A model generated the notes under the pieces. That model saw only the letters and a list, made by a program, of their open reading frames with translations, ran no database searches and was not told the DNA's origin. This document shows positions 55,395-64,000 of a DNA stretch of 64,000 nucleotides, piece after piece. Each line of letters begins with the position of its first letter. The first letter of the stretch is position 1. Origin of the DNA: Bacteroidales bacterium (lineage in GTDB: Bacteria > Bacteroidota > Bacteroidia > Bacteroidales > P3); the NCBI GenBank assembly GCA_017429685.1, contig JAFROL010000024.1, positions 1 to 64,000 on the forward strand, in the 5' to 3' direction. Both the position numbers and the translations under genes were made by a program.

Positions 55395-56525
55395 TCAATA
55401 TTCGCGGGCCAGCCAGCGCAGCATAAACAAATCGGCAACCCGATAGTATGAACACTCTTTGGTGGTCTCCTCAAAAACAAGGTCTTTATCTATCAGCGTT
55501 TGCAATTGGCGGCGAGCTACGGCCGTTGCGCCGATATTGTGCTTCTTAAGGAAAGCATTTGCGTAAGGCTGCGTCACTTCCTCTTCTTTTGCTAATGCTA
55601 TCATATAATTCCACTGTCCATCGGTAAGCAACTGCTTGTATTGCAGAAAATAAGGTTCATTCAGCCTCAGAAGTCTGTCGCAGCAGCCACGCACCACATC
55701 GACGTCAACAGATTTTGCATTAAGCTCATAGACATCGTGGCACAGTCGCTGAGTATAATACGTATGCCGCTTTGTCCAATCCAACACGTACTTGACTGTT
55801 TCATTGTCTATTTGCATTCCGCCTTCAGAAAACATACGCTGGATGTGCTGCGCATATTTCTCTTCAGGAATGGCATCCAGGCCAATAAACTGCGTGCTCG
55901 AGAAAAACGGACGTTGAGGATTGCTGAAAATATCCGTCATCATATGCTTTTTGCTACCGCAGAAAATAAAGCAAACATTGTGAAGACGTTGGATGTATGT
56001 GCGCAGCATTGCTTCAACGTTAGTCTCTGGATACTCGCGTATCTGCTGAAACTCATCTATAGCCAGCAGAATGGGGTCATCCTGTTGTTCAAGGAATTGC
56101 AGAAGTCCTTCCAACGTATGCTCTTTCTCTGTCTGGTTCTGGTAGGAGAATTGAACTTGAGGACTTCCCGACAGCGGGTCAATTCCAAACATTGGCCTGA
56201 GACCCTTCAGCATACCAAGCAGTTTCCTGCCAGCCGATGTATCGTCGGGGAATATCTTGACGATGGCATTGGCGATGCATTTATTCAATTCCGCGATGTC
56301 TCTGGTCGCAAAAATGTCGACATAAATCGGTGTCACATTGCTGCCACTGTTTTTTAGTTCATCAATCAGACGAAGAATCAACCCTGTTTTGCCCATTCTT
56401 CTCTGTGCAATCAGGGTGACGTTGATTTTGGACGACACGCATTTCATCAACGTTTCAAGTTCATTCTCGCGGTCGAAAAACAACTCAGCACCTTCGTAGC
56501 CATTGAAAATAAACGGATTAGTCAT
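55395..56525 (-). CDS. AAA ATPase with C-terminal winged helix (archaeal-ATPase-like)
   Basis: A 376-residue P-loop ATPase of the archaeal ATPase-like group common in Bacteroidota. The N terminus FIFNGYEGAELFFDRENELETL precedes Walker A AQRRMGKTG (residues 40-48) and Walker B ILLAIDEFQQ (152-161). A lid region (GLDAIPEEKYAQHI) and a C-terminal winged helix (from about 300, ending FMLRWLAREY) follow. Substrates of these ATPases are mostly unknown. It is more AT-rich than neighbours and has a promoter overlapped by a direct repeat, suggesting self-regulation or horizontal origin. Confidence 0.85.
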   Translation of the reverse strand: MTNPFIFNGYEGAELFFDRENELETLMKCVSSKINVTLIAQRRMGKTGLILRLIDELKNSGSNVTPIYVDIFATRDIAELNKCIANAIVKIFPDDTSAGRKLLGMLKGLRPMFGIDPLSGSPQVQFSYQNQTEKEHTLEGLLQFLEQQDDPILLAIDEFQQIREYPETNVEAMLRTYIQRLHNVCFIFCGSKKHMMTDIFSNPQRPFFSSTQFIGLDAIPEEKYAQHIQRMFSEGGMQIDNETVKYVLDWTKRHTYYTQRLCHDVYELNAKSVDVDVVRGCCDRLLRLNEPYFLQYKQLLTDGQWNYMIALAKEEEVTQPYANAFLKKHNIGATAVARRQLQTLIDKDLVFEETTKECSYYRVADLFMLRWLAREY

Positions 56526-56548
56526 AATTGTTTTTGTTTTTGTAAATG

Positions 56549-56598
56549 CAAAGATACAACTTTTCTTCGACTTAACAAAATGTTGTTAACAAAATGTT
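56549..56598 (-). promoter_or_regulatory. Promoter and 13-bp direct repeat of the AAA ATPase gene
   Basis: On the minus strand TTTG (56576-56579), 19 bases, then TATCTTTG (56549-56556). The 13-bp sequence TTAACAAAATGTT occurs twice (56572-56584 and 56586-56598), covering the -33 element. A repressor bound there would block the promoter; this is inferred. The remaining 56599-56815 shows no gene. Confidence 0.8.
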
Positions 56599-56815
56599 AA
56601 GTGCGGATCGTCGAAAAAATAACTTGGCTGTGGCGAAGACAGCCCTTTCCCCCCTTGATGTGGAAATTGCGGTCGTTTGCAACGAGTTATGGAAAGCGCT
56701 GGTGATGAAGAGTTTTGGCGTTTTTTGCAAAGATGTTGTTCTTCTATACAATAAAAAAAAATCTGCGTCGTTAAAACATAGAAATATCGAATAATCACAA
56801 AATATCGAAATATTT

Positions 56816-58558
56816 ATGGCACAAACGACACTCGACGCCACAACGCTGGCAAATGTAAAAACCTGGCTCGAAGGAGCATACGATGAAGAAACGAAGGCCG
56901 CTATCCGCAAGATGCAGGCTGAGAACCCCGAAGAACTGAACGAGAGCTTCTACCGCAGCCTTGAATTTGGCACGGGCGGCCTGCGCGGCATTATGGGCGT
57001 GGGCACCAACCGTATGAACCGCTATACTGTGGGTATGGCCACACAGGGCTTGGCCAACTACGTTAAGAACTGCTTCCCCGGTGAGGAGCTGAAGGCCGCC
57101 ATCTCGCACGACAGTCGCAACCACAGTCGCGAGTTCGCCGAAATTACGGCCAACGTGCTTGCTGCCAATGGTTTCACGGTCTATCTGTTCGACGATATGC
57201 GCCCCACTCCGGAACTGAGTTTCGCGGTGCGCTACTTCAAATGCCAGACGGGCGTGATGCTGACGGCGTCGCACAACCCGAAGGAATACAACGGCTACAA
57301 GGCCTATTGGAGTGACGGCTGCCAGCTGGTGCCGCCGCACGACACCAGCGTCATCGACGAGGTGGAGAAAATCAAGTCGCTCGACGACGTGAAATGGTCT
57401 GGCGGCGAGGCCCGTATCAAGACTATCGGTGCCGAGGTGGACGAGGCCTTTATGCGCGAAATCGACAAGAATGTGCTCAACCCCGAATGCATCAAGGCTC
57501 ACCACGACGTGAAGATTGTCTACACCCCGCTGCACGGAACGGGTATCAAGCTGATTCCAACGATGTTGGAGCGTTTGGGCTTCACCAATGTCAATGTCGT
57601 CAAGGCTCAGGCCGTTCCCGACGGAAACTTCCCCACCACGCCGTCGCCCAACCCAGAGGAGCACGCCGCGATGAAGATGGCCGTAGACCTGGCCAAGGAT
57701 ATCAATGCCGACATCGTCTTCGCCAGCGACCCTGACGCCGACCGCGTGGGCGTGGCCGTCAAGAAGCCCGATGGCGAATGGATGCTGCTCAACGGCAACC
57801 AGACGATGTCGGTGCTGATCTACTACCTGCTGAAGCAGTGGAAAGAGAAGGGAAAGCTGACGGGCAAGGAATTTATCGTCAAGACCATCGTTACCAGCGA
57901 GTTGCCTGCTGACATCGCCCGTCGCTATGGCGTCAACGTGTATGACGTGCTGACCGGCTTCAAGTGGATTGGCGCCAAGATACTTGAGAAAGAGGGCAAA
58001 GAGACCTTCATCGGCGGCGGCGAAGAGAGCTACGGCTATATGATTGGCGACTTTGTCCGCGACAAGGATGCCGTGGGCGCCTGCTCGATGATTGCCGAGA
58101 TTGCAGCCTGGGCAGCGTCGCAGGGCAAGACGTTCTTCGACATACTGGTGGACCTCTACAAGGAATTCGGTTTCTACAAAGAGGGCCTGCTCAGCGTTGT
58201 CCGCAAGGGTAAGAGCGGCGCCGAGGAAATCCAGCAGATGATGAAGGACTACCGCGCCAACCCGCCCAAGGAAATCAACGGCAGCCGCGTGGTGCGCATT
58301 CGCGACATTAAGACGCTCGAAGAGACCGACTGCCTGACGGGCAAGACGACGAAAATCGACCTGCCGTCGAGCAACGTGTTGCAGTTCTTCACCGAAGACG
58401 GCTGCAAGGTGACGGTGCGCCCCAGCGGCACCGAGCCGAAAATCAAGTTCTATTTCGGCGTTAAGGACACCCTCACCAAGAAGGAATACTTCGACCAGAC
58501 CAACGCCGACCTCGACGCCAAAATCGAGGCCATCAAGAAGTCGATGGGGCTGGCGTAG
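56816..58558 (+). CDS. Phosphoglucomutase/phosphomannomutase family protein
   Basis: A 580-residue phosphohexomutase that interconverts hexose 1- and 6-phosphates. It has the catalytic-serine motif TASHNPKEYNGYK (Ser at about 152), the metal-binding DPDADRVG (about 305-311), the sugar-binding GGGEESYGY and the C-terminal phosphate loop RPSGTEPKIKFYF. Length and sequence fit the large Bacteroidota phospho-sugar mutases. Glucose versus mannose preference is not fixed. No promoter was recognised in the spacer upstream. Confidence 0.93.
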   Translation: MAQTTLDATTLANVKTWLEGAYDEETKAAIRKMQAENPEELNESFYRSLEFGTGGLRGIMGVGTNRMNRYTVGMATQGLANYVKNCFPGEELKAAISHDSRNHSREFAEITANVLAANGFTVYLFDDMRPTPELSFAVRYFKCQTGVMLTASHNPKEYNGYKAYWSDGCQLVPPHDTSVIDEVEKIKSLDDVKWSGGEARIKTIGAEVDEAFMREIDKNVLNPECIKAHHDVKIVYTPLHGTGIKLIPTMLERLGFTNVNVVKAQAVPDGNFPTTPSPNPEEHAAMKMAVDLAKDINADIVFASDPDADRVGVAVKKPDGEWMLLNGNQTMSVLIYYLLKQWKEKGKLTGKEFIVKTIVTSELPADIARRYGVNVYDVLTGFKWIGAKILEKEGKETFIGGGEESYGYMIGDFVRDKDAVGACSMIAEIAAWAASQGKTFFDILVDLYKEFGFYKEGLLSVVRKGKSGAEEIQQMMKDYRANPPKEINGSRVVRIRDIKTLEETDCLTGKTTKIDLPSSNVLQFFTEDGCKVTVRPSGTEPKIKFYFGVKDTLTKKEYFDQTNADLDAKIEAIKKSMGLA

Positions 58559-58576
58559 TGATTGTTGCTGGGCGAG

Positions 58577-58667
58577 ATTAGGCATTTTAGGCAAATTAGG
58601 CTTTTTAGGCAGCCTAGAATGCCTAATTTGCCTAAATTGCCTAATCTGCCTAATAATGCCTAAAAAC
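58577..58667. repeat. TTAGGC array that inverts to GCCTAA, period 9 (upstream)
   Basis: Four units of TTAGGCnnn followed by four to five units of GCCTAAnnn. Bases 58587-58601 and 58621-58635 are perfect 15-bp inverted repeats. It lies between pgm and the four-helix gene. Confidence 0.9.
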
Positions 58668-58705
58668 CTCTAACCACATTAGAAACCAACAAACACAACA
58701 AAACG

Positions 58706-59260
58706 ATGGACAATTCCTTCCTGCCTCAGAACAAGAATTACCGTTCGTTGATTGCTTTCCAAAAGGCTGAGTGTATTTACGACATCACCTACTATTTTGC
58801 CCACAAATATCTTAAGGTTGGCGACAGGACAATCAACCAGATGGTTATGGCGGCACGGTCGGGCAAGCAGAATCTGGCGGAAGGCAATATAGATGGCGTG
58901 ACTTCGAAGGAAATGGAAATCAAATTGACCAATGTCAACAGGGCTTCATTGCACGAACTTTTGTTGGACTATGAGGATTATCTGCGAGTCAGGGGATTGG
59001 CGCTGTGGGAGAAAGACGACCCACGCTCAATACAAACGCGCAGTTTCTGTGCCAAACATAATGACTCTGAGACTTATAGAAAGAAAATACAGGATCGCAG
59101 CGATGAAGCTATTGCCAATATCGCTATTACATTGATTCATCAGGCCGACGCATTGATTGTCGGCCTGATTGAATGGATGAAGCACAATTTTAAAGAAAAC
59201 GGAGGAATAAAAGAAGAGATGTATCGTGCCCGAAAAGATTGGCAACGGAGGAATGGGTGA
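58706..59260 (+). CDS. Four-helix-bundle protein with suffix domain
   Basis: A 184-residue soluble all-helical protein of the four-helix-bundle group (23S rRNA intervening-sequence protein-like, with the suffix domain form). FQKAECIYDITYYFAHKYL, AARSGKQNLAEGNIDG and LLLDYEDYLRVRGL are the typical helices, and the C-terminal part is the suffix. Known relatives bind nucleic acid or act as accessory factors, but the function of this subfamily is not established. Two palindromic GCCTAA arrays flank it on both sides. It is AT-richer than neighbours. No reverse transcriptase or template repeat is present. Confidence 0.85.
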   Translation: MDNSFLPQNKNYRSLIAFQKAECIYDITYYFAHKYLKVGDRTINQMVMAARSGKQNLAEGNIDGVTSKEMEIKLTNVNRASLHELLLDYEDYLRVRGLALWEKDDPRSIQTRSFCAKHNDSETYRKKIQDRSDEAIANIAITLIHQADALIVGLIEWMKHNFKENGGIKEEMYRARKDWQRRNG

Positions 59261-59266
59261 AGGGGT

Positions 59267-59346
59267 GATTAGGCGTTTTAGGCAGATTAGGCATACTAGG
59301 CTGCCTAAAACGCCTAACCTGCCTAGTTCGCCTAATTAGCCTAACC
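59267..59346. repeat. TTAGGC array that inverts to GCCTAA, period 9 (downstream)
   Basis: Same design as the upstream array: TTAGGCnnn units then GCCTAAnnn units; 59269-59283 and 59303-59317 are perfect 15-bp inverted repeats, with a different filler (GTTT/AAAAC) from the upstream array. It sits between convergent genes. Confidence 0.9.
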
Positions 59347-59349
59347 AAC

Positions 59350-61155
59350 CTATAATACCACCACCTTCTTTGCTGGCCTTTCTCCGACCTTGACCAGATA
59401 TACACCTGTCGGGAGCGGACAGAGCTCTGCCGATATTGCGCGCCCCGTTATGTCGAAGACCGAAACTGGCTCGCCGTCGGCTCCGTCGACAATGATACGT
59501 CCGTCGCGGGCATATATGCGAATGTCGTCATTGTCGGCTTCAACAACAGCCTCGCAGTCCTCGACAAACTTGTCGGCAAACTGCCCCCAGTAACTGTCGG
59601 AAACCCAAAGGTCCATAGTGCCGCAAGGGATATAGATGGTCTGAATGTTCCTCACCTCGTAGAGCGGACCCTGCCCTTTGACGGCAGGCGGCACTCCGGT
59701 GGCTGCGTTGGCAAAGCGGATATGGTTAAGATTCGCGTGATAGAACACGGCTTCGCCCAAGGTGTCGACAGGTCCTGTGAAATTAACGTATCGCAGGTAG
59801 TTGGTCTCGGCGCCGAAGGCAGCTTCGCCAACCTTCTTCAACTTCGACGGCAGGTCAATCGTGGTGATGTGAGGACTCGTGTAGAACGACATAGCCCAGA
59901 AAGCGTATTCGCCTATCTCCTCAACGTCGTTGCCCCAGGTTATGGAGTTGAGTTTGATGCAATTGCTGAAAGCCTCTTTGGGAATTACGCGGAGCGAATC
60001 GGGGATTGCAATCGACTTGAGCGACATACAGGTCATAAACGCGCTTTCGCCCATCGAAAGGAGCGTTTGCGGCATCGTTACATTGGTGAGGTTGTCGTTC
60101 AGAGCGAACGCATTGGCACCTATCGACTTCATATGCGCCGGCAGCACAATGCTACGGAACGAGCAGCCGTTGAAGCAGTTGTCGGTGATGTCGGTCACCC
60201 CCTCAGGAATAGTGATGTTCTCAACCCAAGTGTTGTTCTCGAAACCGCCAAGGACTTTCAGATTGGGGTTCAGCGTCACCGTGGCACCCGATTTGTGGCA
60301 CGACACAAGGGTGTCATAGCCAATGCTATAGACCATCAGCCCGTCCATAACATAATGGCTGTTGCCGTCGGCGATGCTGAGGTTGTTCATTTGTGGACAG
60401 TATGAGAAAGGACAAATCCCGATGTGTGTCACCGACGATGGAATGACGATGCCATCCAACGTCTCGCAGCAGTTGAACGCGAAATCGCCAATCGAAAGCA
60501 GTCCTTCGGGCAGCGAAACCGCAGTGATGTTGCGGCCGAAACCGAGGGCCATCTTACCGATGTGGCGAACGAACGTTGGAATGGCAACGCTGCCAGTCGT
60601 TCCGTCGGGAACCAGGCAAAGCGTAAGGCTATCCTTGCTGTAGAGCCATCCGTCGATGGAACGGTAGCGGGGGTTGGCCTCATCCACCGTGATGCTCGTC
60701 AGGTTCCTGGCCCAGAAAGCGCAGTCGTCGAAACGCTCGAAACAGGCCGGCAGGTGCAGCGACGCGATGTGGGAATACGAAAAAGCGTGGTCGCCGATGA
60801 AGCGCAGCGAGTCGGGCAGCGCGAGTGATGTGAAGCTGCAGTTGTAGAAGCAGTTCGACCCGATGCTGCGTATGGTCGCCGGCAGGGTTAGGCTGGTGAC
60901 ATTGCTGCAGCTTTCGAACGCCCCATCCCCCAGCGCTGTGACGGTATACGTCGTGCCATCGTGAACCACCGTCTGCGGAATGCTGATATCACCGTTATAC
61001 GGATTGTTGTGGATGTAATAGCGCGACGTAACCTCGACGGTGCGGTCCGATTCCGAGGTGATGCCGTAGACGATGCCGTCGACATCGAAATAGACAGGCT
61101 GGCACATACCCTTTGCGCACAGGCCTAACAACAAAAATACAAATAGTTTTTTCAT
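59350..61155 (-). CDS. BspA-like leucine-rich repeat protein with T9SS sorting domain
   Basis: A 601-residue secreted protein. After a signal peptide (to GMCQ) it has LRR_5 (BspA-type) repeats from about residue 70 to 520, with the pattern I-x-x-I-x-x-x-A-F-x-x-C-x-x-L-x-x-I-x-L/I-P. Such proteins act as adhesins or substrate binders. The C terminus (from about 545, IRIYARDGRIIVDGADGEPV to GVYLVKVGERPAKKVVVL) is a T9SS type A-like sorting domain. ATG 61155 is chosen over TTG 61161. It is divergent from a membrane-anchored ECF sigma factor across 264 bases with no standard promoter, so an ECF-dependent promoter is possible. Confidence 0.87.
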   Translation of the reverse strand: MKKLFVFLLLGLCAKGMCQPVYFDVDGIVYGITSESDRTVEVTSRYYIHNNPYNGDISIPQTVVHDGTTYTVTALGDGAFESCSNVTSLTLPATIRSIGSNCFYNCSFTSLALPDSLRFIGDHAFSYSHIASLHLPACFERFDDCAFWARNLTSITVDEANPRYRSIDGWLYSKDSLTLCLVPDGTTGSVAIPTFVRHIGKMALGFGRNITAVSLPEGLLSIGDFAFNCCETLDGIVIPSSVTHIGICPFSYCPQMNNLSIADGNSHYVMDGLMVYSIGYDTLVSCHKSGATVTLNPNLKVLGGFENNTWVENITIPEGVTDITDNCFNGCSFRSIVLPAHMKSIGANAFALNDNLTNVTMPQTLLSMGESAFMTCMSLKSIAIPDSLRVIPKEAFSNCIKLNSITWGNDVEEIGEYAFWAMSFYTSPHITTIDLPSKLKKVGEAAFGAETNYLRYVNFTGPVDTLGEAVFYHANLNHIRFANAATGVPPAVKGQGPLYEVRNIQTIYIPCGTMDLWVSDSYWGQFADKFVEDCEAVVEADNDDIRIYARDGRIIVDGADGEPVSVFDITGRAISAELCPLPTGVYLVKVGERPAKKVVVL

Positions 61156-61195
61156 AATCAACTTGTTTTAGAATGCTATTGGGTTAATTTCATTA

Positions 61196-61227
61196 AACGG
61201 ATCGACCGTTCGTTTTGCCGGTTCGTT
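61196..61227. promoter_or_regulatory. Repeat elements in the LRR/sigma divergent spacer
   Basis: AACGG and CCGTT form an inverted repeat around ATCGA (61196-61210), and CCGTTCGTT (61206-61214) is echoed by CCGGTTCGTT (61218-61227). They lie 41-72 bases upstream of the LRR gene and could be sites for the divergent sigma factor; inference only. Confidence 0.3.
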
Positions 61228-61419
61228 CAATAACATAATACGCATTTTTCCGTCGAAATCTGACAAATATGGAATACTTTTTTTGTTGCTTTGGTGAAAA
61301 AAAGAATAACCATCATAATAATTCTTGAGCGCAACCGTTAAAAAAATGCCGACCCGTGTCAGATTCTCCCTGAAAAATGTGTATTATGATAATGTAGAAC
61401 ATTCTTTAGCTCCCGAAAG

Positions 61420-62451
61420 ATGAATAAAACAGTCGCCGACCGCGAGACTCTTTTCACCTCCCTGCTCATTCGCAACCACTCTATGCTGTGGCGGATGTGC
61501 TGGCGCCGTTCCGGCAAGGACACCGATTGTTGCAAGGACCTGATGCAAGAGGTAGCCATCGACATCTGGAACAATCTCGACAAGCTCCGTCCCGACGCCA
61601 CTCCCAGCCAGGAGCGCGCTTGGGTCGGCTGGCGGGCCAGGTCGGTCTTTTTCAGAATCGGACGAACCAGGCAACTGCCCACCGAACCGCTTACGGACGA
61701 AATAGCCAACAGTGTTGTTGCTGACGAATCGCACCGTCTGGCCGAGATTCTCGAAGGCTGTATGTCGTCGCTCAGCGATGGCGAACGGCAGATGATGCAG
61801 CTCTACCTCGACGGCTACAACGCCGAGGAGATTGGCCAGCAGATCGGCGTCAGTCGCGATGCTGTCTATCAGCGTATGCACCGCGCAATCAATAAGATGC
61901 GCTATTCGGTCCTGGTGCTGCTGTTGTTGCTGGCCGCCGGTGCTACGGCCATTGCCATTGTGCCGCCGTGGAACAGATTCTTCGGCACCGAGTGGGGCAG
62001 GTTCTTTGGCCACGGCGATGAAGACCACGACGCCTTGTGCGATACTTCCCAAATCCAAACACTTGGCAAACATTCGGTTGCGCTTCCTCCGTCCGACACC
62101 GCCGTTGCTGCCGCAACAGCAGTGCCGGAGAAAAGGACCCAAAGAATCAGTATCGAAAGCCTTCCTGTGATAGATGTGCTGCAGATGCTGCCCTCGCAAG
62201 ACACCATCTGGGTGGCCGATATCGACAGCCGGCTGACATTGTCGTTTAACGGAGACGACATCATAATTGCAGGCAAGACGGGCGAAAGCATCAAGATCTA
62301 CGATATGAATGGCAATATGGTTGCCAGCGGCGTCGCCGACGGGCTGTGCATACTGAATCCATTCCCAATGCACAGCCTTGTGCTGCACTTGACGGACTAT
62401 TATTTCCGCCTAAAAATAGGCAACCGCGAAGAGATATTGCTGGTTCTGTAA
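61420..62451 (+). CDS. Membrane-anchored ECF sigma factor with T9SS-CTD-like outer domain
   Basis: A 343-residue protein. Residues about 1-158 form an ECF sigma factor: region 2 with DLMQEVAIDIWNNL and region 4 with SLSDGERQMMQLYLDGYNAEEIGQQIGVSRDAVYQRMHRAINK. A single transmembrane helix (about 162-182) follows, then an acidic/Pro/Ala linker and a C-terminal domain (about 255-340) with LTLSFNGDDIIIAGKTGESI and IYDMNGNMVASGVADG then YYFRLKIGN. That pattern resembles the fold of T9SS sorting domains, including the one on the divergent LRR protein. I infer a membrane-tethered sigma factor whose outer part senses an envelope signal. Typical ECF sigma factors are about half this length. Confidence 0.75.
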   Translation: MNKTVADRETLFTSLLIRNHSMLWRMCWRRSGKDTDCCKDLMQEVAIDIWNNLDKLRPDATPSQERAWVGWRARSVFFRIGRTRQLPTEPLTDEIANSVVADESHRLAEILEGCMSSLSDGERQMMQLYLDGYNAEEIGQQIGVSRDAVYQRMHRAINKMRYSVLVLLLLLAAGATAIAIVPPWNRFFGTEWGRFFGHGDEDHDALCDTSQIQTLGKHSVALPPSDTAVAAATAVPEKRTQRISIESLPVIDVLQMLPSQDTIWVADIDSRLTLSFNGDDIIIAGKTGESIKIYDMNGNMVASGVADGLCILNPFPMHSLVLHLTDYYFRLKIGNREEILLVL

Positions 62452-62537
62452 CGGCTACGGACATCGGCACGCTTCACGGCCAGAAAACTGCCAATGATTT
62501 TTTTCTGGAAAAGAAGCGTTATTTCCCAAAATAATCG

Positions 62538-62545
62538 TATCTTTG
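62538..62545 (+). promoter_or_regulatory. -7 element upstream of the tryptophanase leader
   Basis: TATCTTTG matches TAnnTTTG. No clear TTTG lies at the -33 distance. Transcription would start near 62550, giving a leader of about 210 bases before the tryptophanase gene. Confidence 0.6.
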
Positions 62546-62557
62546 CATTTCCAAACT

Positions 62558-62638
62558 ATGACAATGAACAGTATCGACATAAACGCCCGTTTGCTTTTCT
62601 TAAATATCAAGAAAAGAGACGTTTATTGTCCTTTTTAG
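62558..62638 (+). CDS. Possible leader peptide of the tryptophanase gene
   Basis: A 26-codon frame from ATG 62558 (24 codons from the second ATG at 62564), ending in Cys-Pro-Phe-stop. It begins a few bases after the predicted transcript start. Counting from 62564 it has the same length as Escherichia coli TnaC as I recall it, with Phe at position 12 where TnaC has its critical Trp, Asn-Ile at 14-15 and Val at 20 also shared, and Pro at 23 rather than 24. No Trp codon is present. The likeness may be chance; a leader-peptide role is inferred from length and position. Confidence 0.4.
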   Translation: MTMNSIDINARLLFLNIKKRDVYCPF

Positions 62639-62704
62639 AGACGTTTGCTATGGCGTCTCACGGCATCGACATACGAGAAATTGTATGCCGATTTTTGTGT
62701 TTTG
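62615..62704 (+). promoter_or_regulatory. Competing hairpins between leader frame and tryptophanase
   Basis: AGAGACGTTT occurs at 62615-62624 and 62637-62646; GAGACG in either copy can pair with CGTCTC at 62654-62659. Downstream, CGG (62661) with CATAC (62670-62674) can pair with GTATGCCG (62683-62690), followed by a T-rich run to 62704, a terminator-like structure with a bulge. The arrangement permits mutually exclusive folds, the first of which overlaps the leader frame. Bases 62705-62758 hold nothing else recognised. Confidence 0.4.
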
Positions 62705-62758
62705 ACAGTTTGGAAACAAAAAAACTCATTCAATAATTAATCAAAAAACGTAATAATT

Positions 62759-64000
62759 ATGGAACTCCCATTTGCAGAAGCGTGGAAAATCAAGATGGTG
62801 GAACCCATCAAGAAATCCACTCGTGAACAACGTGAAAAATGGCTCAACGAAGCCCATCAGAATGTCTTTATGCTGAAGAGCGACTACGTCTACATCGACC
62901 TGCTGACCGACAGCGGCACCGGCGCTATGAGCGACCGCCAGTGGGCTGCTATGATGCAGGGCGACGAAAGCTACGGCGGTGCCCGTTCGTTCTATCATAT
63001 GAAGGACACCATCACCGAGCTGACCGGCTTCGAGTATGTCATCCCCACCCACCAGGGCCGCGCAGCCGAGAACGTGCTGTTCAGCTACCTGGTAAAGCCC
63101 GGCAACATCATCCCCGGCAACGCCCACTTCGACACCACCAAGGGCCACATCGAGAGCCGCAAGGCTTTCGCCATCGACGTCACCGTCAAGGAGGCTTACG
63201 ACACCCAGCTTGAGGTCCCCTTCAAGGGCAACGTCGACCTGGCCAAGCTTGAGAAGGTCCTGCAGGAAAACAAGGGCAACGTCCCCTTTATGGTCCTCAC
63301 CGTCACCAACAACACCGTCGGCGGCCAGCCCGTCTCGATGCAGAACATCCGCGAGACCTGCGAACTCTGCCACAAATATGGCGTGCCCGTCAACGTCGAC
63401 AGCGCCCGCTTCATCGAGAACGCCTACTTCATCAAGACCCGCGAGAAAGGCTATGAGAACAAGACCCTGCGCGAAATCGCCCTCGAAATGTTCAGCTATG
63501 CCGACTCGATGACGATGAGTGCCAAGAAGGACGGCCTCGTCAATATGGGTGGTTTCATCGCCACCAACAAGAAGGAATGGTACGAAGGCGCCAAGATGTT
63601 CTGCATCCCCTTCGAAGGCTTCCTCACCTATGGCGGTATGAACGGCCGCGATATGGACGCCCTCGCCGTCGGTCTGAAAGAGAACATCGAGTTCGAGATG
63701 GTCGAGACCCGCATCAAGCAGGTCCACTACCTGGCCAAGAAGCTCGATGAGTACGGCATCCCCTACCAGCGTCCTGCCGGTGGCCACGCCATCTTCGTCG
63801 ACGCCGACAAGGTGCTGACCAACATCCCGAAAGAGGAATTCCCCGCCCAGACGCTGACCTGCGAGCTCTATCTTGAAGCCGGCATCCGCGCCTGCGAAAT
63901 CGGCTACGTGCTGGCCGACCGCGACCCCGTGACCCGCGAGAACCGCTTCGGTGGCAACGACTTCGTGCGCCTCTGCATCCCGCGCCGCGTCTACACCAAC
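62759..64000 (+). CDS. tnaA: Tryptophanase (3' end outside the window)
   Basis: Tryptophanase is a PLP enzyme that splits tryptophan into indole, pyruvate and ammonia. The 414 residues present lack about 45 C-terminal ones. It matches Bacteroidota enzymes from the start MELPFAEAWKIKMVEP; PLP-binding Lys257 in SAKKDG, THQGRAAEN (97-105), SARFIENAYFIK (215-226) and RPAGGHAIFVDA are visible. FDTTKGH (124-130) with Asp125 and GIRACEIG favour tryptophanase over tyrosine phenol-lyase. The start codon spans 62759-62761. The upstream leader with a small frame and hairpins suggests transcription attenuation. Confidence 0.93.
   Translation, partial: MELPFAEAWKIKMVEPIKKSTREQREKWLNEAHQNVFMLKSDYVYIDLLTDSGTGAMSDRQWAAMMQGDESYGGARSFYHMKDTITELTGFEYVIPTHQGRAAENVLFSYLVKPGNIIPGNAHFDTTKGHIESRKAFAIDVTVKEAYDTQLEVPFKGNVDLAKLEKVLQENKGNVPFMVLTVTNNTVGGQPVSMQNIRETCELCHKYGVPVNVDSARFIENAYFIKTREKGYENKTLREIALEMFSYADSMTMSAKKDGLVNMGGFIATNKKEWYEGAKMFCIPFEGFLTYGGMNGRDMDALAVGLKENIEFEMVETRIKQVHYLAKKLDEYGIPYQRPAGGHAIFVDADKVLTNIPKEEFPAQTLTCELYLEAGIRACEIGYVLADRDPVTRENRFGGNDFVRLCIPRRVYTN

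Follow-up and report, generated by a model that had tools for sequence, protein, structure and literature searches.

The window, a stretch of 64,000 nucleotides from a Bacteroidales genome, carries at 61420–62451 (+ strand) a gene for a 343-residue transmembrane ECF sigma factor with an outer domain related to the C-terminal domains (CTDs) of T9SS cargo proteins, and divergent to it lies the gene of a BspA-type LRR protein that itself ends in such a CTD. The architecture, the homology of the outer domain, the family, its neighbourhood and a promoter-like motif in common between the two genes are all shown by the sequence. We propose that the protein is a one-component, membrane-tethered ECF sigma factor serving a small surface-protein regulon, and we hold the full mechanism with moderate confidence.

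Sigma body, membrane helix and outer domain

The start previously given for the gene (61156) takes in the divergent intergenic region, and the open reading frame proper begins at 61420. Residues 1–161 (61420–61902, +) form an intact ECF body with regions 2 and 4, as a preliminary description of this DNA had claimed: TIGR02937 (sigma70-ECF) matches residues 15–161 with 70 bits against a cut-off of 42.9, Sigma70_r4 lies above its Pfam cut-off at residues 114–161, Sigma70_r2 is found at E = 9e-4, under its cut-off, and the AlphaFold2 model contains the sigma helices. The single transmembrane helix of that description is also borne out. Region 4 passes directly, with no zinc-finger domain ahead of the membrane, into one hydrophobic helix (about residues 162–181 by a Kyte-Doolittle scan) that bears a conserved A-x-A-x-V-P-x-W at its outer end (61903–61971, +), and AlphaFold2 gives one unbroken helix at residues 146–180, in which the membrane segment continues the final helix of region 4. 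Among 37 aligned family members of the same short form, A177, P182 and W184 are invariant and A179 is kept in 35, the other two rows having T at position 179. Beyond the membrane comes a low-confidence, fast-evolving linker (residues ~191–268; 61990–62223, +), disordered over residues 197–268 with a pLDDT of about 41, and with the highest dN/dS among four segments in both pairs where every ratio could be formed. Beta strands follow between residues 273 and 342; with a pTM of 0.34 (mean pLDDT 72) for the full protein, the relative placing of its parts in the model is meaningless. A Pfam scan of the protein found no FecR family, the CTD-like domain being there instead.

This C-terminal beta-sandwich (residues 269–343; 62224–62448, +) had earlier been likened to a T9SS sorting domain from the strings IYDMNGNMVASGV and YYFRLKIGN, both of which are indeed found in the protein. 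The C-terminus is covered by no Pfam domain, nor by NCBIfam domains among the matches listed, and so the resemblance needed testing. We compared it with a profile of 14 DUF6383-type CTDs of LRR cargo proteins from the fetched loci, the window's neighbour included, from which two rows derived from sigma-bearing long forms (L096 and L105) had been excluded, and in which one row (L127), perhaps a long-form copy that lacks the sigma part, may make the test slightly circular. The profile matches the window protein with E = 5.3e-8 and 55 of 73 family members (all except lone sigma genes and one 239-residue fragment) below 1e-3, and none of the shuffled sequences, 20 for each of the 73 members, fell below 1e-3, the best reaching 0.0079. 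When considering profile–profile comparisons (hhalign), the CTDs of the short forms match the DUF6383 CTDs of cargo at 97.8% and these in turn match YPNP-type cargo CTDs at 94.5%, with 45% for short forms against YPNP-type CTDs directly and 0.2% for reversed controls. A profile from YPNP-type CTDs only gives a non-significant E of 0.09 for the window protein, and the link to classical CTDs thus goes via those of the DUF6383 type. These comparisons make the outer domain a homologue of the CTD that ends the BspA/LRR neighbour, with weaker homology to T9SS CTDs of the classical kind.

The earlier likeness to a sorting domain stands as relatedness to cargo CTDs and not as a literal signal. TIGR04183 (Por_Secre_tail) matches 58 places in the window's own genome at E ≤ 0.1, and neither the sigma protein nor its LRR neighbour is among them; PF18962 is absent from the 16 Pfam matches at E ≤ 1, and neither family is among those listed for the long forms (25 of 73 in one case). 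Two features present in its neighbour's CTD are missing from the window domain, the G-x-Y and the last strand's basic residues, and in the 12 long forms G788, Y790 and K801 are invariant. The best name for the window domain, given these missing residues, is CTD-derived, as opposed to a proven sorting signal.

The C-terminal 112 residues modelled alone with AlphaFold2 form seven strands, with a pLDDT of 87–93 across residues 41–80 of the model and 72–90 beyond. A Foldseek search with the domain places T9SS CTDs within the first 35 matches, namely, at rank 10, the RgpB CTD (PDB ID: 7pq4; 3.9e-3) and the D chains of two entries (8gl8, 8.4e-3; 8gl6, 9.4e-3) in which the T9SS translocon is seen with its substrates RemZ and RemA; these chains we took as the substrate CTDs. 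However, no solved structure was matched at E ≤ 1e-3, and generic beta-sandwiches such as beta-glucuronidases (best 1.5e-3) rank higher.

The CTD part is under purifying selection by its dN/dS ratios, which were 0.11 and 0.21 in two pairs, compared to 0.14 and 0.07 for the sigma part. Among the aligned short forms G298 and G334 are invariant and C310 is present in 34 of 37 rows. A cysteine near the position of C310 occurs in 57 of 68 sigma-side C-termini compared to 8 of 28 cargo tails, including that of the window's LRR protein, and the idea that cargo CTDs generally lack it is consequently too strong. A C-x-x-x-C pattern occurs in 37 of the 68 sigma-side C-termini (the window's is without it) compared to two of the 28 cargo tails, both of them long-form copies. 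As a separate observation, the near-invariant cysteine of the sigma-side CTDs is a possible disulphide or ligand site.

The neighbouring LRR gene and the sigma-factor family

The divergent gene (59350–61155, − strand) encodes a putative T9SS cargo protein with LRR_5 repeats (E = 1.4e-75), an N-terminus that by eye resembles a signal peptide, and a DUF6383 CTD at residues 541–600 (59353–59535, −; Pfam E = 1.1e-5). Its ATG is at 61155, the gene caller's longer start being a TTG at 61161. The description of this neighbour as a BspA-like protein with a sorting-type end, from the strings VFDITGRAI and YLVKVGE, is correct, both strings being present. The same genome gives 33 LRR_5 matches, many falling within the same genes. 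It encodes a T9SS, judging by SprA (2334.6 bits) and GldM (over its cut-off), together with the 58 TIGR04183 matches; this last family also has matches in six of 14 control genomes, with one of them passing the cut-off. A search of viral contigs with the LRR protein found nothing. Near the LRR gene, at 58706–59257, we also note a gene for a 184-residue four-helix bundle suffix protein (TIGR04258).

The sigma-factor family is, across the genomes searched, restricted to one gut Bacteroidales genus. A family match at E ≤ 1e-30 is found in 60 of 120 genomes of the genus; at 1e-15, 27 of 61 relatives gave a match, every one within the window's genus, and one genome each from 24 other families gave none. 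In 393 genomes of the order the full architecture was not found outside the window's own genome, all other matches ending at position 159 of 329 or earlier; at most five candidates were scored per order genome and few members of the genus were drawn, so rare distant members could be missed. Named Bacteroidales MAGs with such loci are UBA3724, RGIG6188 (on two contigs) and RGIG6229, making four loci in three MAGs, the records of the latter two being titled Sheep_Rectum.

From the fetched neighbourhoods, which cover a subset of the matched places, we recovered 86 members (duplicates L038–L040 dropped). Most common is the short form, sigma-TM-CTD, with 52 members, one of which (L054), judged by eye, does not end in anything like a CTD, while another (L097) has a truncated N-terminus. 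Twelve members of 779–816 residues (L105, L089, L091, L084, L092, L086, L053, L052, L100, L101, L104 and L108) are long forms, in which LRR_5 is matched in 12/12 and DUF6383 in 9/12 at E ≤ 0.01, and which thus join sigma factor, membrane helix, BspA-type LRR and CTD in one open frame. The others are 4 intermediate forms of 492 residues, 12 lone sigma genes, and 6 fragments, interrupted by a frameshift or by the end of a contig.

Homologues with the same order of parts, and their location beside cargo genes, had been suggested as checks on the preliminary description, and both were found. An LRR gene resembling the window's cargo lies within 1.5 kb of 33 of the 52 short forms (19 are without one) compared to 1 of 18 control ECF genes, a comparison of flanks of up to 1.5 kb in which related rows are non-independent. 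For the remaining forms the counts are 6/12 long, 6/12 lone (mostly the partner gene itself, below), 0/4 intermediate and 1/6 truncated.

At least six of the 12 lone sigma genes are followed by a partner gene that overlaps them (−3 to −10 nt), giving split systems (L055, L056, L107, L133, L081 and L125). The partner's product has about 45 cytosolic residues and then a similar membrane helix; similarity to LRR proteins is seen in 5/6 by phmmer and in the sixth (L056) by eye, and four (L055, L107, L125 and L081) have a CTD-like end. A similar picture emerges for L124, where the gene downstream of the lone sigma gene matches the outer part of the 492-residue forms at 37%. The split form suggests that the membrane part of the fused proteins originated as an anti-sigma-like partner. 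Five of the six partners show M-[ST]-D-G-[LF]-[DE]-[EQ]-W in their short conserved cytosolic N-terminus, which is, as an aside, a candidate for a new anti-sigma domain.

In a tree of sigma domains the family stands apart from five other ECF factors of the window's own genome (100/100), and the long forms require 8 changes, at least 7 of them forced by well-supported branches. All 12 long forms also contain an internal stretch resembling a signal peptide (Met, a basic residue, an Ala/Leu-rich run and AQ), with an invariant Met where the LRR part begins (about residue 275 of L105), and a secreted-looking paralogue adjoining the long form of L105 starts at the same place as this Met. This stretch could serve as a nested start for the production of free cargo, or it could be left over from a fusion.

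A motif upstream of sigma and LRR genes

The upstream regions of the family have in common the motif TGT[C/A]AGAT-N16-GTATT. In the window it forms a predicted ECF-type promoter, TGTCAGAT-N16-GTATT, for the sigma gene (61357–61385, +; 34 nt to the ATG), and recurs toward the LRR gene (61237–61265, −), about 80 nt before the ATG at 61155. Among 64 non-redundant upstream regions it is the leading dyad and is present in 36, compared to 8 for the best in ten shuffled sets. Of 84 sigma genes, 72 have the first box, TGT[CA]AGAT, within 400 nt and 12 do not; the second box is recognised for 63 of the 72, in 59 cases at a spacing of 16 nt and in four at 15 nt.

The motif is rare when sought exactly. 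The 2.65-Mb assembly of the window's own genome contains it exactly three times: one copy each precedes the sigma gene and the divergent LRR gene, and the third, on contig C7, lies ahead of the gene of a CarbopepD_reg_2 (CarboxypepD_reg-like) protein. The reversed motif does not occur there. With one mismatch allowed, there are 9 matches in all compared to 5 for the reversed pattern, not clearly above noise, and we therefore used only the three exact sites. Within the 64-kb window alone, two matches with up to 2 mismatches are no more than expected by chance, and the weight of the motif rests on its exactness, placing and recurrence. Across 1.06 Mb of loci the motif occurs 78 times, in 51 cases ahead of a family sigma gene, in 11 ahead of an LRR gene and in 16 elsewhere. 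Twelve of these 16 precede, by eye, lipoprotein-like or CarboxypepD_reg-like genes, with a family sigma gene mostly lying divergent to the site's gene or following it, and four are unassigned; a Pfam check of three such genes gave a sub-threshold CarboxypepD_reg for one (at L055) and no match for two (at L048 and L045).

Over the genus, 51 of the 60 genomes that have the family contain the exact motif, compared to 18 of the 60 that lack it (Fisher p = 1.2e-9, the genomes being non-independent and phylogeny uncorrected), and the reversed pattern occurs in 7 of 120. Some exact sites in the 18 family-less genomes resemble a related class of ECF promoter and others look random. A variant, TGTAAGAT/TGTAAGATTTG...GTATT, lies about 30–50 nt before the matched part of five other, unfused ECF genes (G025:C95:20527, G036:C12:31250, G002:C1:48037, G022:C32:60188 and G023:C7:81532), as would be expected if every class of ECF factor had a promoter of its own to read. 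All five have a second copy about 1 kb further on. An additional feature, seen by eye upstream of L053, L089, L086, L084 and L127, is an inverted repeat on the flanks of the TGTCAGAT box (CACCTCCGA...TCGGAGGTG; L084 has a variant), near an upstream TATTTTTGCA box. It could represent a second control or an RNA hairpin.

Proposed mechanism, alternatives and known systems

In the mechanism we propose, the transmembrane helix would at rest hold region 4 at the inner membrane, with the T9SS-CTD-derived domain in the periplasm. There is no anti-sigma domain between region 4 and the helix, so inactivity would depend on tethering alone, which we assume. The trigger would be some event in the periplasm, with the state of T9SS cargo or of the CTD-recognising T9SS machinery as the most likely one; cleavage of the linker would follow, then of the membrane helix close to A177–A179, and the freed sigma part would take RNA polymerase to TGTCAGAT-N16-GTATT promoters. 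The predicted targets are its own gene, by positive feedback, the divergent LRR/CTD cargo gene and the one CarboxypepD_reg-like gene elsewhere. We infer that this sigma factor reads the motif, and it probably switches on its own gene and the neighbouring surface-protein gene. RseP-like and Prc-like proteases that could release it are encoded in the same genome, which counts for little since these housekeeping proteases are widespread (14/14 and 11/14 control genomes). It is plausible that T9SS cargo or secretion is what the CTD would sense; candidates for the sensed input would be cargo, a T9SS receptor of CTDs, or another ligand. A more specific version, in which the copy of a sorting domain is a secretion gauge and the sigma factor competes with real cargo for a periplasmic CTD receptor, we regard as tentative and on balance doubtful. 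If it were true, cargo load or T9SS activity would decide whether the tethered sigma factor is protected or cut, the feedback loop would be closed onto the cargo genes, and the long forms would join sensor and cargo in one gene, possibly with a nested second start from which cargo by itself is made.

Several other explanations bear on the outer part. The domain could be the remnant of a fusion to a cargo gene, leaving a mere tethered sigma factor whose CTD-like part senses nothing related to secretion. The absence of G-x-Y, of the basic residues and of TIGR04183 and PF18962 matches points that way, as do the repeated changes that the long forms need in the tree, LRR modules being often fused or lost, and the sigma-TM form (L054) that ends unlike a CTD. 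Against it stand the selection seen in both pairs, the retention of G298, G334 and nearly always C310, and a model with a pLDDT of 87–93 over residues 41–80 of its 112, and we consider this explanation rather improbable. To the same degree we doubt that the domain is an Ig-like module binding a carbohydrate or metal, as in ECF52, with the tie to T9SS one of ancestry only. The generic beta-sandwiches that lead the Foldseek list would suit such a module, and the C-x-x-x-C of many sigma-side C-termini (not the window's) hints at a site of their own, but sequence profiles link the domain to CTDs of the neighbour's type, and 7pq4, 8gl8_D and 8gl6_D are all within the structural top 35. The helix might also be an internal signal peptide that signal peptidase always cuts after A-x-A, so that the sigma factor would be constitutively free, with no signalling, and the outer part simply exported. 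The conservation of A177 and A179 at the outer end of a helix of about 20 residues is what this predicts, and most long forms finish in intact-looking CTDs. We nevertheless think it very unlikely, considering that the two rows with T at 179, and the split-form partners with S or T there (aligned by eye), do not fit well, T at that position being poor for signal peptidase, that the hydrophobic stretch is long enough for a membrane anchor, and that constitutive release would leave the conserved CTD of the short forms without a role.

A different question is whether the common motif is read by another regulator or sigma factor, this one controlling other genes. Exact sites in 18 of 60 genomes lacking a family match at E ≤ 1e-30, their absence from 9 of 60 that have one, and the TGTAAGAT-type sites before five other ECF genes would all be expected if so. 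But motif and family co-occur, the motif precedes the sigma genes themselves, as autoregulated ECF factors would have it, and those five other genes bear a variant of it, making another reader unlikely. The tethered, autoregulating sigma factor is our preferred reading, with its inactivity while tethered and its proteolytic release inferred.

The outer modules of RsgI regulators resemble those of secreted enzymes. In the RsgI/SigI system of Clostridium thermocellum, a substrate-sensing membrane regulator is cut by RseP in its transmembrane helix (PMC12203970); RsgI is, however, a separate anti-sigma factor in a Gram-positive host, whereas the window system is a single fused protein. Closer in architecture is IutY of Pseudomonas putida (ECF243), where a cytosolic ECF sigma factor and a periplasmic domain lie on one polypeptide (PMC5411451, PMC8999054) and release is by Prc and RseP (PMC5411451). 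The outer part of IutY is an anti-sigma domain that answers an outer-membrane siderophore receptor, whereas that of the window protein is T9SS-CTD-derived and sits beside LRR cargo; no receptor of the siderophore type was seen by eye among the open reading frames of 56000–64000. The actinobacterial groups ECF52 (SCO4117) and ECF53 also fuse an ECF sigma factor to a transmembrane segment and outer module, and for ECF52 published work suggests autoregulation and proposes proteolytic release (PMC5826349, PMC8999054). Both have a zinc-finger domain ahead of the membrane and ECF52 a carbohydrate-binding module, whereas in the window family region 4 meets the membrane helix directly and the outer part is of the CTD or LRR-CTD type. 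A likeness in wiring is found in PorA-PorXY-SigP of Porphyromonas gingivalis, where a CTD-bearing protein acts on an ECF sigma factor controlling T9SS genes (PMC7712824). There the CTD protein, two-component system and sigma factor are separate, whereas here sigma factor and CTD are one protein, with predicted targets in its genome (the sigma gene, the cargo gene and one further gene) in place of the T9SS machinery controlled by SigP.

Transmembrane sigma factors with outer modules (ECF52/53, IutY) and a CTD protein acting on an ECF pathway (PorA) are thus already known. New, going by titles and abstract openings among the matches listed in the open-licence PMC literature, is the union of sigma factor, helix and T9SS-type CTD in one protein, together with the versions with LRR and the motif in common with cargo; no sigma factor with a T9SS CTD or LRR ectodomain was seen among them. 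In one study few Bacteroidetes ECF sigma factors had class I anti-sigma neighbours (6% with such a domain nearby, compared to 32% over all phyla; PMC7406223). A self-tethered sigma factor with a domain derived from a secretion tag would offer a direct route from the state of the T9SS or cell surface to transcription, with a predicted regulon of three promoters in the window's own genome.

Between the sigma gene and a gene for tryptophanase (NF053783, from 62759 on) sits a 26-codon open reading frame (62558–62638), with strong hairpins (z −2.8) behind it. The arrangement resembles a leader-peptide attenuator of the TnaC kind.
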